A stretch of 64,000 bases of DNA from Bacteroidales bacterium. GTDB lineage: Bacteria > Bacteroidota > Bacteroidia > Bacteroidales > G3-4614. The stretch is taken from NCBI GenBank assembly GCA_015061035.1, contig SUXK01000003.1, forward strand, positions 218,700-282,699. The letters run 5' to 3'. The notes beneath the pieces are model-generated. The model had not been told where the DNA came from, searched no databases, and saw only the letters and a list, made by a program, of their open reading frames with translations. Both the position numbers and the translations under genes were made by a program. Of this stretch, positions 1,754 through 48,056 are shown piece after piece; the first letter of the stretch is position 1; each line of letters starts with the position of its first letter.

Positions 1754-2941
1754 ATGGAAAAAGAGAGGCTTTTCAACAGAAATTTTTTATTAGTATTGGC
1801 AGGAAACTTTTTGTTGTTTTTTGCCTTTTTTACAATACTCCCAGTGTTGCCACTCTATATGCAGCAAGAGTACAATGCAACCCATACACAGATAGGAGTA
1901 GTGTTGTCGCTCTACACAATAACAGCATTAATAATACGACCCTTTGCAGGATTCATGTTAGACACGCTACCACGCCGACCAATGCAGTTAATATTTTATG
2001 GAGCATTTGCCCTACTGTTCTGTACCTATATAATACCCGGGAATATAATAACATTTGCGGTAATAAGGGCAATACATGGATTAATATTTGGATTTATAAC
2101 TGTTGCAAACAGTACCGTAGCAATAGACGTATTGCACACATCTCGGCGTAACGAGGGAATAGGATATTACGGAATAAGCAATAATCTTGGAATGGCATTA
2201 GGACCAACAATCTCATTTGCCACCTATAACTTCTTTGGGAGTTATGAGGCACTCTTCTTGTGTGCCTTTATAGCCTGTGCCGTAGGATTTGTTATGATAT
2301 TGATGGTGCAAATGCCAAAGAAGACAATCCCCCCAAAAGCCATAAGCACCTCACCCATATCACTCGATAGATTCTTTCTGATAAAAGGAACACACGAGAG
2401 CATAACCTTTATGCTTCTCTCGTTCAGTTATGGAATACTATCAACCTATTTAGCCGTTTATGCACGAGATGAAGTAGGAATAGAAAATAGCACAGGGCCA
2501 TTCTTTATGCTTATGGCATTAGGATTAATAAGTGCGCGTATAAGCAACGGGCCGCATTTGCGAAAAGGCAGAGTAATAGAACTAATCACAGCAGGAATGT
2601 TAGGACTATTCATAGGATATGCAATGTTTATATTCCTCACAGCCCCAATAGCCTTTTACGCTTCGGCATTTGTGTTAGGATTTTCGTATGGAATGATATG
2701 TCCGCCAGTACAAACAATGTTTGTAAACCTTGCACCTCATGAACGCCGAAGCACAGCAAACTCAACCTATCTAACCTCTTGGGATGTAGGAGTAGGGATA
2801 GGAGTAGTAGTAGGCGGAGCAATAGCCGATTTGCATAGTTACCGAGCAGCATATATGCTAGGAGTAGTATTAGTAGCCATTGCCCTTGTGCAGTTCCGCA
2901 AAGTAGCAGCACCATATTTTACAAATAACAGATTAAGATAA
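1754..2941 (+). CDS. MFS transporter
   Basis: A 395-residue major facilitator superfamily permease with about 12 hydrophobic segments. The N-terminal helix (NFLLVLAGNFLLFFAFF) is followed by the loop-2/3 signature around RPFAGFMLDTLPRRP. The N half carries NNLGMALGP, a motif-C-like stretch seen in drug/metabolite exporters. The substrate cannot be read from sequence. It starts 4 nt after wbqC, and its TAA stop directly abuts an ATG (2942) that would begin the following acyltransferase gene if the poly-C tract were in frame. Confidence 0.88.
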   Translation: MEKERLFNRNFLLVLAGNFLLFFAFFTILPVLPLYMQQEYNATHTQIGVVLSLYTITALIIRPFAGFMLDTLPRRPMQLIFYGAFALLFCTYIIPGNIITFAVIRAIHGLIFGFITVANSTVAIDVLHTSRRNEGIGYYGISNNLGMALGPTISFATYNFFGSYEALFLCAFIACAVGFVMILMVQMPKKTIPPKAISTSPISLDRFFLIKGTHESITFMLLSFSYGILSTYLAVYARDEVGIENSTGPFFMLMALGLISARISNGPHLRKGRVIELITAGMLGLFIGYAMFIFLTAPIAFYASAFVLGFSYGMICPPVQTMFVNLAPHERRSTANSTYLTSWDVGVGIGVVVGGAIADLHSYRAAYMLGVVLVAIALVQFRKVAAPYFTNNRLR

Positions 2942-2963
2942 ATGCTTGATAATGATAAACTTA

Positions 2964-2972
2964 CCCCCCCCC
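2964..2972 (+). repeat. C9 homopolymer tract near gene start
   Basis: Nine consecutive C residues in otherwise AT-rich DNA, 22 nt inside a reading frame that begins at ATG 2942 directly after the upstream stop codon. With 9 C the frame ends at a TGA at 3014-3016. With 10 or 7 C it would join the acyltransferase frame exactly. This is the layout of a slipped-strand phase-variation switch, though a homopolymer sequencing error would look the same. Confidence 0.6.
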
Positions 2973-3012
2973 TATCTCAAAATCTTTACAGCGGCTGCTG
3001 TGGATTGATTAT

Positions 3013-3960
3013 ATGAAGGCAATAGGAATGTATCTTATTGTTTTAGGCCATTTCTTCTCTATTGGACATAAATTAATATATGTTTTTAGTGTACCTCTTT
3101 TCTTTATTATATCAGGATTTTTAAGCAAACGAGTGAGTAATCAAAAAGAGTTCTGGAAAAAACTATGGTACAACCTTGCTTTGCCCATGATAATAATAAC
3201 ACTATTGGCATATAGTGTCAGAACATTAGGAGATATAGTTTTAGGACGTTACAATATAGGTGAATTAATAAAACTCCCAATAAATCTTGTATTGGGAATG
3301 TGGAATATATTCAAAGAGTGTTGGTTTATATATACTCTTATCTTAATTAAGATAGTTTTTCAGTACACTCGAGGATATATAATTGATTTAGTTTTAACAC
3401 TCCTTTTCCTATTAATATCGTGGATTATATATATAGAAGAATTTGTTATTTTAGGATATAACATACAACATAATCCCTCATCATTAATCAATCTGTTTTG
3501 TTGTTATCCGTTCTTTATGATAGGCTTTTATATGTCAAAATTCAAGATATATTTGAATTCTTATAAAGTCACACCAAAAACTATAATATATTTTTTATCA
3601 AGTTTAGTGTGTGTATATATTTGTTACTTATATAATGGTGATGTTAAAATGTACACAGCAGATTTTGGAGATAATATATTCTTATATCTTTTAGGAGGAG
3701 TAAGTGGAACAGCAATGATATTCTTTATATGTAAATACCTTGAAAGATACAATTTAGGATGGTTGAGAACGATTTCTGTAGGATCAATCCTAATATTAGG
3801 TTTTCATATATTTCTGGTACAAATCTTACGCAAAATATTCAATGAGCCATCGTTTCTCGATTATGTATGGTCGCTATTAATACTATTTATATTTATTCCA
3901 ATAATAACCTTTACTCAAAAATATTTGCCGCTGCTTATTGGAAAATATAGAACAAAATAA
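3013..3960 (+). CDS. acyltransferase family 3 membrane protein, N-terminus displaced by poly-C tract
   Basis: Integral membrane acyltransferase of the acyltransferase-3 family, which acetylates or otherwise acylates surface glycans and lipids. The domain begins at MKAIGMYLIVLGH with the family's histidine and continues through roughly ten hydrophobic segments to 3960. The coding frame is open upstream of ATG 3013 and encodes R-L-L-W-I-D-Y, which belongs to the family's usual N-terminus, but contains no ATG. The likely natural start, ATG 2942, immediately follows the MFS stop and is separated by a run of nine C residues (2964-2972) that puts it out of frame. As sequenced, only a shortened protein from 3013 can be made, or the gene is off. 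Family call is firm; expression state is uncertain. Confidence 0.8.
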   Translation: MKAIGMYLIVLGHFFSIGHKLIYVFSVPLFFIISGFLSKRVSNQKEFWKKLWYNLALPMIIITLLAYSVRTLGDIVLGRYNIGELIKLPINLVLGMWNIFKECWFIYTLILIKIVFQYTRGYIIDLVLTLLFLLISWIIYIEEFVILGYNIQHNPSSLINLFCCYPFFMIGFYMSKFKIYLNSYKVTPKTIIYFLSSLVCVYICYLYNGDVKMYTADFGDNIFLYLLGGVSGTAMIFFICKYLERYNLGWLRTISVGSILILGFHIFLVQILRKIFNEPSFLDYVWSLLILFIFIPIITFTQKYLPLLIGKYRTK

Positions 3961-4146: not shown

Positions 4147-5310
4147 ATGCTTAAGCAAATTATTAATGCTAAAATTCTAACACCCCAAGGATGGTTAAAA
4201 GATGGTTCAGTTATCATACGTGATAACAAAATTCTTGAGGTAACAAACTGCGACCTTGCTGTAATAGGAGCAGAAGTAATAGACGCAAAAGGTATGTATG
4301 TAGTACCAGGTGGTGTAGAGATTCACATTCATGGAGGTGGCGGTTGCGACTTTATGGAAGGGACAGAGGAGGCTTTCCGCGGAGCAATTCAGGCACATAT
4401 GAAACACGGAACAACAAGTATATTCCCCACTTTGTCATCATCAACAGTTCCAATGATTGAGGCTGCTGCTGAGACATGTACCAAACTTATGGCAGAGCCC
4501 AACAGTCCAGTGCTTGGACTTCACCTTGAAGGACACTACCTAAATATGGCAATGGCAGGAGGACAATTACCTGAGAATATCAAAAACCCTGATCCAAATG
4601 AGTACATTCCTCTTGTAGAAAAATGGCACTGTATCAAACGTTGGGACGCAGCACCAGAGTTACCAGGAGCAATGCAATTTGGTAAATATATCACATCAAA
4701 AGGTATACTTGCATCAGTAGCCCACACACAAGCGGAGTATGACGATATACATGCAGCACGCAAGAACGGATATACACACGCAACGCACTTCTATAATGCA
4801 ATGCCCGGATTTCACAAGCGCCGTGAGTATAAATACGAGGGAACAGTAGAGAGTATATACCTTCACGAAGATATGACAGTAGAGGTTGTTGCCGATGGTA
4901 TTCACGTACCCCCAACAATATTACGACTAATACACCATATCAAAGGAGTGGAGCGAGCATGTGTAATCACCGATGCCCTTGCATGTGCAGCAAGTGATAG
5001 CAAAACAGCATTTGATCCACGTGTAATCATTGAAGATGGCGTATGTAAACTTGCCGACCGTACAGCCCTTGCAGGATCAGTAGCAACAATGGACCGACTT
5101 ATCCGCACATTAGTTCAAAAAGCAGAGATACCATTAGATGATGCAATACGTATGGCATCAGAGACACCTGCAAAGATTATGAACGTATATGATCGCAAAG
5201 GCTCATTGCAAAAAGATAAAGATGCAGACATCATGATTCTTGACGATGATTTGAATATACGCGCAGTATGGGCAATGGGTAACCTTGTAGAAGGAACATA
5301 TAACCTATAA
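4147..5310 (+). CDS. nagA: N-acetylglucosamine-6-phosphate deacetylase
   Basis: Cytoplasmic amidohydrolase that converts GlcNAc-6-phosphate to glucosamine-6-phosphate and acetate, feeding amino sugars into glycolysis or cell-wall synthesis. The 387 residues match the family length. Metal and catalytic residues are visible: His60/His62 in EIHIHGG, Glu128 in GLHLEGH, His193 in SVAHTQ, His214 in HATHFYNAM and the catalytic Asp276 in VITDALA. The C-terminal MASETPAKIMN and KDADIMILD segments are typical. It is transcribed alone from the 4056 promoter and ends at the 5467-5499 hairpin. The GH84 and GH29 glycosidases in the same window suggest use of host glycan sugars. Confidence 0.95.
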   Translation: MLKQIINAKILTPQGWLKDGSVIIRDNKILEVTNCDLAVIGAEVIDAKGMYVVPGGVEIHIHGGGGCDFMEGTEEAFRGAIQAHMKHGTTSIFPTLSSSTVPMIEAAAETCTKLMAEPNSPVLGLHLEGHYLNMAMAGGQLPENIKNPDPNEYIPLVEKWHCIKRWDAAPELPGAMQFGKYITSKGILASVAHTQAEYDDIHAARKNGYTHATHFYNAMPGFHKRREYKYEGTVESIYLHEDMTVEVVADGIHVPPTILRLIHHIKGVERACVITDALACAASDSKTAFDPRVIIEDGVCKLADRTALAGSVATMDRLIRTLVQKAEIPLDDAIRMASETPAKIMNVYDRKGSLQKDKDADIMILDDDLNIRAVWAMGNLVEGTYNL

Positions 5311-7100: not shown

Positions 7101-8210
7101 ATGTTGCTTAGAGAAGGGCAGGAATTAGAACTTATTAAAATCCTTCGTTTCCCGTTGATTGTAATGGTAGTAATGATTCATGCCGAATTTTCTACTATTT
7201 CAATGGGAGGAGAAAACTTTCAGTTTAATTTAGAAACATTCCCAATATACAGCAATTTATCATTTTTGATATCGCAACTTATATCCCATATAGCGGTACC
7301 AATTTTCTATATATTTTCGGGTTATCTCTTCTTTTATAATCTACAAGCATTTACAACAAAAGAGTATATAAGAAAAATAAGGAGCCGTGCTCAAACACTA
7401 CTAATCCCTTATGTTTTCTGGAATTTGGCAGTAATACTACTATTCTTCATGTTGCAAACATTTATACCTTCAATGGCATCGGGGGAAAACAAATTAATTG
7501 TAGATTACACCATAACCGACTGGATAAAGGCTTTTTGGAGTTATAAACTTGGAATGCCTATATGTTATCAACTTTGGTTTATAAGAGATTTGATGGTTGT
7601 TATATTGCTCTCTCCAATCATATATTACGCAATAAAAAAAACTAATATATATTGTGTTTTAGCATTAGGTATTTTATGGGCATTCAATATAAACATAGGA
7701 GTGCCAGGTTTCAAAACTGTTGCTTTCTTTTTCTTTGCTTTAGGGGCTATATTCTCAATAAAACCATATAGCCTTAATGTTATTAAGAAAATCAAAAATT
7801 TAAGTTATCTATTGAGCATATTACTATTGACATTTGAATTAATTATGCACAATATTGATGATGCCCGCAATCTGCCCAATGGAATAGTAGATGTAATATA
7901 TAATACATGTATATTTAGTATGATAATATCACTTTTTAATATCACCCTTAGTATATTACAAAAAAGACAAATAGAGCCTAACAGGTTGTTATACAACTCA
8001 AATTTCTTTATATATGCCTACCACGCAATGCCTTTAACACTATTTACAAAGGTGCTTATAAAATGTATAGAGCCTACAACAGAGATACAAACTATATTTA
8101 TATATGTTGCTGCACCAATGTTAACAATAGCAGTAGGCGTATTAATTTTTAATATTCTAAAAAAGATTCTTCCCCAATTTACCTCATTAATAACTGGAGG
8201 TAGGCTATAA
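7101..8210 (+). CDS. acyltransferase family 3 membrane protein
   Basis: A 369-residue integral membrane acyltransferase. The N-terminal LRFPLIVMVVMIHAEF carries the family's conserved histidine in the first helix, and roughly ten hydrophobic helices follow. The YLFFYNLQ and LWFIRDLMVV segments are typical of the O-acetyltransferase branch. It probably acylates an exported sugar or lipid at the inner membrane; the substrate is unknown. Unlike the 3013 gene its start is intact (ATG 7101, 37 nt after the radical SAM stop). Confidence 0.85.
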   Translation: MLLREGQELELIKILRFPLIVMVVMIHAEFSTISMGGENFQFNLETFPIYSNLSFLISQLISHIAVPIFYIFSGYLFFYNLQAFTTKEYIRKIRSRAQTLLIPYVFWNLAVILLFFMLQTFIPSMASGENKLIVDYTITDWIKAFWSYKLGMPICYQLWFIRDLMVVILLSPIIYYAIKKTNIYCVLALGILWAFNINIGVPGFKTVAFFFFALGAIFSIKPYSLNVIKKIKNLSYLLSILLLTFELIMHNIDDARNLPNGIVDVIYNTCIFSMIISLFNITLSILQKRQIEPNRLLYNSNFFIYAYHAMPLTLFTKVLIKCIEPTTEIQTIFIYVAAPMLTIAVGVLIFNILKKILPQFTSLITGGRL

Positions 8211-46922: not shown

Positions 46923-48056
46923 ATGAAATATTACTTGATAGCAGGAGAGGCCTCGGGCGATTTACACGCATCGCACCTTATGGCAGAGATAAAAAAGAAC
47001 GATACCAATGCAGAGTTTCGTTTCTTTGGAGGCGACCTAATGGCGGCTCAAGGAGGAGTGTTGGTAAAACATTATCGCCAGATGGCATTTATGGGATTTA
47101 TTGCAGTAATAAAAAATCTCCGTACCGTATTGCGTAATATGCAAGAGTGTAAGAAGGATATAAAAAACTTTGCCCCTGATGCTGTAATATTGGTAGATTA
47201 TCCAGGGTTCAATATGCAGATAGCCAAATATGTTAAAACAAAACTGGGAATTCAGACTCACTATTATATAGCACCAAAGATTTGGGCATGGAAAGAGTAT
47301 CGTATAAAGAGCATACGAAAATATGTCGATTATATGTACTCCATTCTTCCATTCGAAGTTGAATATTTTGCAGGACTTAACTATAAGGTAGATTATGTAG
47401 GAAATCCAACAGTAGATGAGTTAGCGATACGTCCCGATGCAGAAGAGACCTTTGAAGAGTTCACTACCTCAAATGCGTTGAGTACAAAACCTATTATAGC
47501 CCTAATAGCAGGAAGTAGAGTTGGCGAAATAAAGAGTTCACTCCCTCGTATGATAGCAGCAGTTGAAGGAATGGATGAGTATCAATTTGTTGTAGCAGGA
47601 GCACCATCTATCCCCCCCCAACTATACGCTCAAATAATAGCGGACAAACCTATAAAGGTGGTTTATGAAAAGACCTATCGCCTTATGCAACAAGCAACGG
47701 CAGCACTTGTAACCTCGGGAACGGCAACACTTGAAACAGCACTAATGGGAGTGCCTCAGGTAGTATGTTATTATATGGCAGGAGGTAAGTTTACATATAA
47801 ACTGTTTGAGAAGATATTAAAGGTAAAATATGTATCGTTGGTAAACCTTATAGCAGGAAAAGAGGTGGTAAAAGAGTTGTTGGTAAACCATTTTACTCCC
47901 GAAAATACTCGAAGGGAGTTGGAAAAGATACTGCAACCAAATGAAAGAGAGAAAATATTGGAAGGGTATCAACTGATGCGAGCCAGACTTGGAGCAGTTG
48001 GGGCGCCACGTCACGCAGCAAAAGTTATATGCAAAAGAGTAGAGGAGAGTAAATAA
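46923..48056 (+). CDS. lpxB: lipid-A-disaccharide synthase
   Basis: Glycosyltransferase of family 19 that joins UDP-2,3-diacylglucosamine and lipid X to form the lipid A disaccharide, peripheral at the inner membrane. It has 377 residues. N-terminal YYLIAGEASGDLHASHLM, FFGGDLMAAQGG, DYPGFNM, YYIAPKIWAWKEYR, and donor-site ALIAGSRVGEIKSSLP and SGTATLETALMGVPQVV are diagnostic. Confirms an LPS-bearing Gram-negative. Neighbouring surE and the beta-helix lipoprotein are regular partners in Bacteroidetes. Confidence 0.96.
   Translation: MKYYLIAGEASGDLHASHLMAEIKKNDTNAEFRFFGGDLMAAQGGVLVKHYRQMAFMGFIAVIKNLRTVLRNMQECKKDIKNFAPDAVILVDYPGFNMQIAKYVKTKLGIQTHYYIAPKIWAWKEYRIKSIRKYVDYMYSILPFEVEYFAGLNYKVDYVGNPTVDELAIRPDAEETFEEFTTSNALSTKPIIALIAGSRVGEIKSSLPRMIAAVEGMDEYQFVVAGAPSIPPQLYAQIIADKPIKVVYEKTYRLMQQATAALVTSGTATLETALMGVPQVVCYYMAGGKFTYKLFEKILKVKYVSLVNLIAGKEVVKELLVNHFTPENTRRELEKILQPNEREKILEGYQLMRARLGAVGAPRHAAKVICKRVEESK

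Follow-up and report, generated by a model that had tools for sequence, protein, structure and literature searches.

The window, a stretch of 64,000 nucleotides, lies on a contig labelled C8 of a gut Bacteroidales genome (1.92 Mb, 85.7% complete). Its local gene order is signal peptidase I, a WbqC-like gene, an MFS transporter, an acyltransferase and nagA (Table 1). The genus and family are represented by eight genomes among those compared, including the sister species G002, a goat-caecum MAG; a scan of the genome contigs matched this sister species alone. The MFS gene was found in 8/8 genus genomes. According to synteny, nagA lies directly 3′ of the MFS gene in G004, G005, and G006, with no acyltransferase gene between the two, and the acyltransferase gene is therefore regarded as accessory. 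Its neighborhood is no glycan locus. A second acyltransferase-3 gene is located 3 kb downstream (window 7101-8210; PF01757, 86.8 bits), and no homopolymer was noted at its start.

Table 1. Features of the acyltransferase locus, in window coordinates.
Feature	Position	Strand	Remarks
MFS transporter gene, upstream	1754..2941	+	PF07690, 170 bits; stop TAA 2939-2941
Short out-of-phase frame from ATG2942, 24 codons	2942..3016	+	stop TGA 3014-3016; joins acyltransferase frame at 7 or 10 C
Second ATG, likely true start	2952..2954	+	third frame; in frame at 8 or 11 C; position matches start in both orthologues
C9 homopolymer run	2964-2972	+	from sequence; C8 in sister species G002, CCCACCC in G003
Acyltransferase-3 coding frame past the run	2974..3960	+	328 codons plus stop
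First in-frame ATG of acyltransferase at nine C	3013..3015	+	overlaps TGA 3014-3016 as ATGA; start here drops conserved Asp
nagA, downstream neighbor	4147..5310	+	TIGR00221, 259.8 bits

The protein encoded past the run matches the acyltransferase-3 family (PF01757) over nearly its full length, with 60.8 bits against a curated cut-off of 31. It contains VPLFFIISGF, which corresponds to the family motif V-x-x-F-F-x-(I/V/L)-S-G-(F/W/Y) (PMC9558356), and its His26 is present in 22/22 aligned sequences; a conserved Asp is found in 19 of the 22 aligned family members. Members of this family have about ten transmembrane helices, and the acyltransferase has many hydrophobic stretches, of which the structure model (mean pLDDT 44.6) is too poor to give a helix count. 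A PDB search with the acyltransferase found no relative, and an NCBIfam search matched no family. Judged by its enzyme family alone, the protein may acylate an envelope glycan.

As described in the original prediction, the MFS stop (TAA 2939-2941) is directly abutted by an ATG (2942-2944), the run at 2964-2972 consists of exactly nine C, and the frame opened by ATG2942 stops at TGA 3014-3016 after 24 codons. The bases flanking the run are ATGCTTGATAATGATAAACTTA and TATCTCAAAATCTTTACAGCGG. The acyltransferase frame is open across this region, extending 333 codons from stop to stop and encoding ...QRLLWIDYMKAIG, and to this extent the prediction stood; the accompanying statement that this frame has no ATG did not, as there is an in-frame ATG downstream at 3013. 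Similarly, the claim that the frames join at 7 or 10 C is correct for ATG2942 but not for ATG2952, which had been overlooked and joins at 8 or 11 C. With the nine C of the window, ATG2952 is out of frame and its frame ends at TGA 3006-3008. A tract of 7 C is thus open from ATG2942 and one of 8 C from ATG2952, 9 C is closed from both, and the longer tracts of 10 and 11 C are again open from ATG2942 and ATG2952, respectively. Simple-repeat phase-variable genes carry at their 5′ end a repeat whose length alters the reading frame, and the C run is a repeat of this kind. Taken at face value, the window copy, with its nine C, reads as off for the full-length protein. A rare start codon (CTG or ATT) in the C9 frame would be possible in principle but is unsupported, and the orthologues have an ATG equivalent to 2952.

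Within the genus, acyltransferase orthologues were found only in G002 (93% identity) and G003 (81% identity), and among 149 Bacteroidales genomes just two more distant relatives pass 1e-15. Alignment of the N-terminus to homologues, which had been proposed as a check, places the start of both G002 and G003 at the ATG equivalent to 2952. In G002 the run is C8, its flanks are identical to those in the window, and the gene is in frame from this ATG. In G003, ACATTACCCACCCTTTCC replaces the run and the corresponding ATG is in frame; an uninterrupted run was either lost in G003 or never there. In both distant relatives, a Met precedes Q-R-x-x-W-x-D by a few residues (MAEQRINWVDWAK and MQQRITWIDYTK), and a start just there therefore looks normal for the subgroup. 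Length polymorphism, a further mark of phase-variable genes, is thus present at this locus between two sister species (C9 vs. C8); the tract lengths known are two, from two species. C8 and C9 stand between unchanged flanks and leave the gene in different frames, so that tract length differs at this locus and sets the frame.

The run was originally described as striking in AT-rich DNA, and this argument proved weak, as C9 runs occur in the genome at the rate expected by chance. The window has one C9 match against 0.10 expected, and at least one C9 was seen in 8 of 100 dinucleotide shuffles. Genome-wide pattern searches gave 2 C9 runs where a first-order Markov model expects about 2.7, so that the run does not have the excess over chance length that characterizes phase-variable genes. 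The run alone is unremarkable, and what is informative is its position together with the length difference in the sister species. In other genus members there are C13 and C14 runs above chance for a window-like composition (C14: about 0.001 expected per genome), some of which fall in the GC-richer G007, for which more such runs are expected. For 3 of 3 intergenic C runs with an identifiable counterpart in another species, the two lengths are one base apart (C8/C7, C9/C10, and C8/C9), which indicates that C runs of this genus do change length. A coding C8 in an lpxB-like gene (window 47612-47619; assigned by eye as lipid-A-disaccharide synthase) is in frame and is unchanged in G003, in a stretch that is almost identical between the two genomes.

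From the conserved tryptophan to the end, 319 codons are without a stop in the window, G002, and G003. When G003 is taken as the outgroup, 17 private amino-acid changes fall on the window lineage and 3 on that of the sister, and private silent changes number 10 and 15, respectively. Compared with four neighboring genes, this ratio is out of line on the window branch (17:10 vs. 13:83; Fisher p = 9e-7) and in line on the sister branch (3:15 vs. 25:118; p = 1); the pooled test excludes g5568, g6260, g7101, and g8494, for which the G002 contig offers no proper orthologue. Under a three-taxon codon model, omega is 0.34 for the window branch vs. 0.10 elsewhere (p = 0.0057), and the MFS gene shows no such difference on that branch. 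The data weakly reject an omega of 1 for the window branch (p = 0.033), in what is a modest test of three sequences. None of the 43 positions identical in four relatives is changed in the window protein, and in simulated neutral drift of 0.05 per site a stop appears in 94% of runs. These modest tests on three sequences suggest that constraint on the window protein is weaker but not absent. Relaxed yet persisting constraint argues against both an assembly slip and long-dead DNA. The closed state is probably genuine and not entirely new, and the protein was probably not free of selection over the whole branch. Such a pattern fits a gene that is silent part of the time, and it also fits a recent frameshift or loss.

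The explanation favored here, which is given an even chance, is that slippage of the C run sets the acyltransferase frame as an on/off site. The run, located near codons 5-7 from ATG2952, would slip in length, and the tract length would choose among the frames: the gene would be open from ATG2952 with 8 or 11 C, open from ATG2942 with 7 or 10 C, and closed from both with 9 C. Since each of the two open classes is served by one ATG, two lengths in three would permit a full-length protein. The sister species would have been caught open (C8) and the window species closed (C9). We infer slippage as the cause of this C8/C9 difference, and frequent change in both directions with it. Reversible phase variation is therefore plausible and unproven; according to published criteria, reversal and rate must be shown before phase variation is named (PMC11868660). 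The proposal that the gene is an on/off switch sequenced in its off state holds in that the run lies inside the coding start, differs in length, and moves the gene in or out of frame, and in that acyltransferase-3 enzymes have phase-variable kin; its 7 and 10 C, on the other hand, do not use the start shared by the orthologues. Evidence against a switch consists of the chance-rate C9 runs, the two tract lengths only, the interrupted run of G003, and the lack of a glycan locus. The interpretation is partly supported, and the relaxed evolution of the window copy also permits a plain recent frameshift.

In that case, a chance C run would have slipped once and left the gene recently and permanently off in the window lineage, as an early pseudogene with no evolved switch. 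This is rather unlikely, though recent loss of the acyltransferase is possible. It agrees with the chance rate of C9 runs and with the excess of private amino-acid changes (17 vs. 3), which is out of line with the four neighbors on the window branch only, and short C runs such as the C7 of meningococcal siaD are treated as accidental (PMC11868660). The weak rejection of neutrality over the whole branch speaks against it, as do 319 codons with neither a stop nor a further frameshift, where most neutral simulations acquired a stop, and the absence of any lost conserved position. The persisting constraint is also compatible with a third account, in which ribosomes on the nine-C message end the ATG2942 frame at TGA 3014 and re-initiate at ATG 3013, such that tract length tunes a shortened protein instead of turning it off. 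ATGA is the commonest layout of coupled start and stop codons (PMC12548453), and the shortened protein would retain the invariant His and the F-F-x-x-S-G motif. However, it would be without the Asp that most aligned family members share (19/22) and without the R-x-x-W-x-D segment common to both orthologues and the two distant relatives, and the ATGA may be a coincidence, because the TGA is simply read across TATATGAAG; re-initiation is accordingly considered improbable. A ninth C introduced by sequencing or assembly, with the gene simply open in the window species, is more doubtful still. Homopolymers are the usual site of such errors and the window genome is incomplete (85.7%), but the other coding runs in the assembly are in frame (the C8 in lpxB and a G8 in hsdS), and an excess of replacements on the window lineage alone is not expected of an always-open gene.

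Slippage-set switching of the acyltransferase frame would have several counterparts among known systems. Some acyltransferase-3 genes are phase-variable (PMC9558356; PMC6479036). For instance, oafA of Haemophilus influenzae belongs to the same family and is switched by a repeat within the gene (PMC9558356; PMC6479036); it differs in that its repeat is the tetranucleotide GCAA, its product acts on LOS, and its switching is demonstrated, whereas that of the window gene is proposed. As in the window gene, ATGs in more than one frame lie before or around the repeat of H. influenzae lic2A, and this layout is common around meningococcal variable repeats (PMC5084427). For lic2A and the meningococcal repeats, variation between strains or in expression is shown, and here there is one comparison between sister species. 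Short coding C runs that set the frame, like that of the window, are present in mga of group A Streptococcus (C8/C7) and siaD of N. meningitidis (C7), but neither is accepted as evolved phase variation, as rate and reversal are low or unproven (PMC11868660). The same caution therefore applies to the window run. Within the Bacteroidales, an acetyltransferase of the PSI/9 locus of Bacteroides fragilis 638R is broken by the insertion of a C into a C run, for which slippage was proposed (PMC3090145). That run has only 4 C and lies inside a polysaccharide locus, and a second start codon was not described. Reviews of phase variation in the Bacteroidales describe it as acting by DNA inversion (PMC12632263). 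The invertible promoters of capsule loci in gut members of this order exert stochastic on/off control of surface functions (PMC12632263), through inversion by recombinases in contrast to replication slippage. If the run switches, replication slippage would join the known DNA inversions as a source of surface diversity in gut Bacteroidales, here in a gut lineage for which no cultured model was found, and the state of the run could be scored directly in metagenome reads. If the difference is a plain frameshift, it represents ordinary gene loss at a mutation-prone run.

Other homopolymer runs of the genus fall into several contexts. Intergenic C runs flanked 5′ by TTA occur at L049, L080, L085, L088, L090, L091, L096, L104, and L108 of the genus genomes, and TTA-C7 is found 40 times in the genus vs. 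11 for the mirrored control. On the G strand, 9 of 29 TTA-C-run sites have the Bacteroidetes -7 box TANNTTTG 19-20 bases past the G run (shuffles: mean 0.16, maximum 3). By their sequence, these sites look like a promoter class in which the G run takes the place of the -33 element, and the length of the G run possibly tunes such promoters. The acyltransferase run was considered as an antisense promoter of this type and rejected: the reverse strand lacks a TANNTTTG box at the customary spacing of 19 bases, and the one gene lying there is the MFS gene, in the opposite sense. That homopolymer slippage is a working route of phase variation in this uncultured genus, toggling the acyltransferase by frame and tuning promoters elsewhere through a G run 19 bases before the -7 box, is a tentative proposal and would seem unlikely at present.

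Within the window genome, a G8 run (L004:1501-1508, contig C6) lies in frame in a type I hsdS gene (Methylase_S), between its two specificity domains, where a slip would truncate the protein or change its specificity. Phase-variable hsdS genes are known. A second intergenic context is the near-palindrome TAAATCAGTAATTTA directly before a C run, found at L055, L060, L064, L065, L084, L092, L098, and L107; several of these runs sit upstream of genes for likely secreted proteins. Finally, the runs at L061:380-393 (C14) and L059:1184-1193 (C10) lie within a hairpin-like repeat of the form CTCCG-Cn-GCGAGCGTAAGCTCGTAAAAGCGGAG or close to it, a short way past genes whose products end in SVRPVCE or SVRAVCE.
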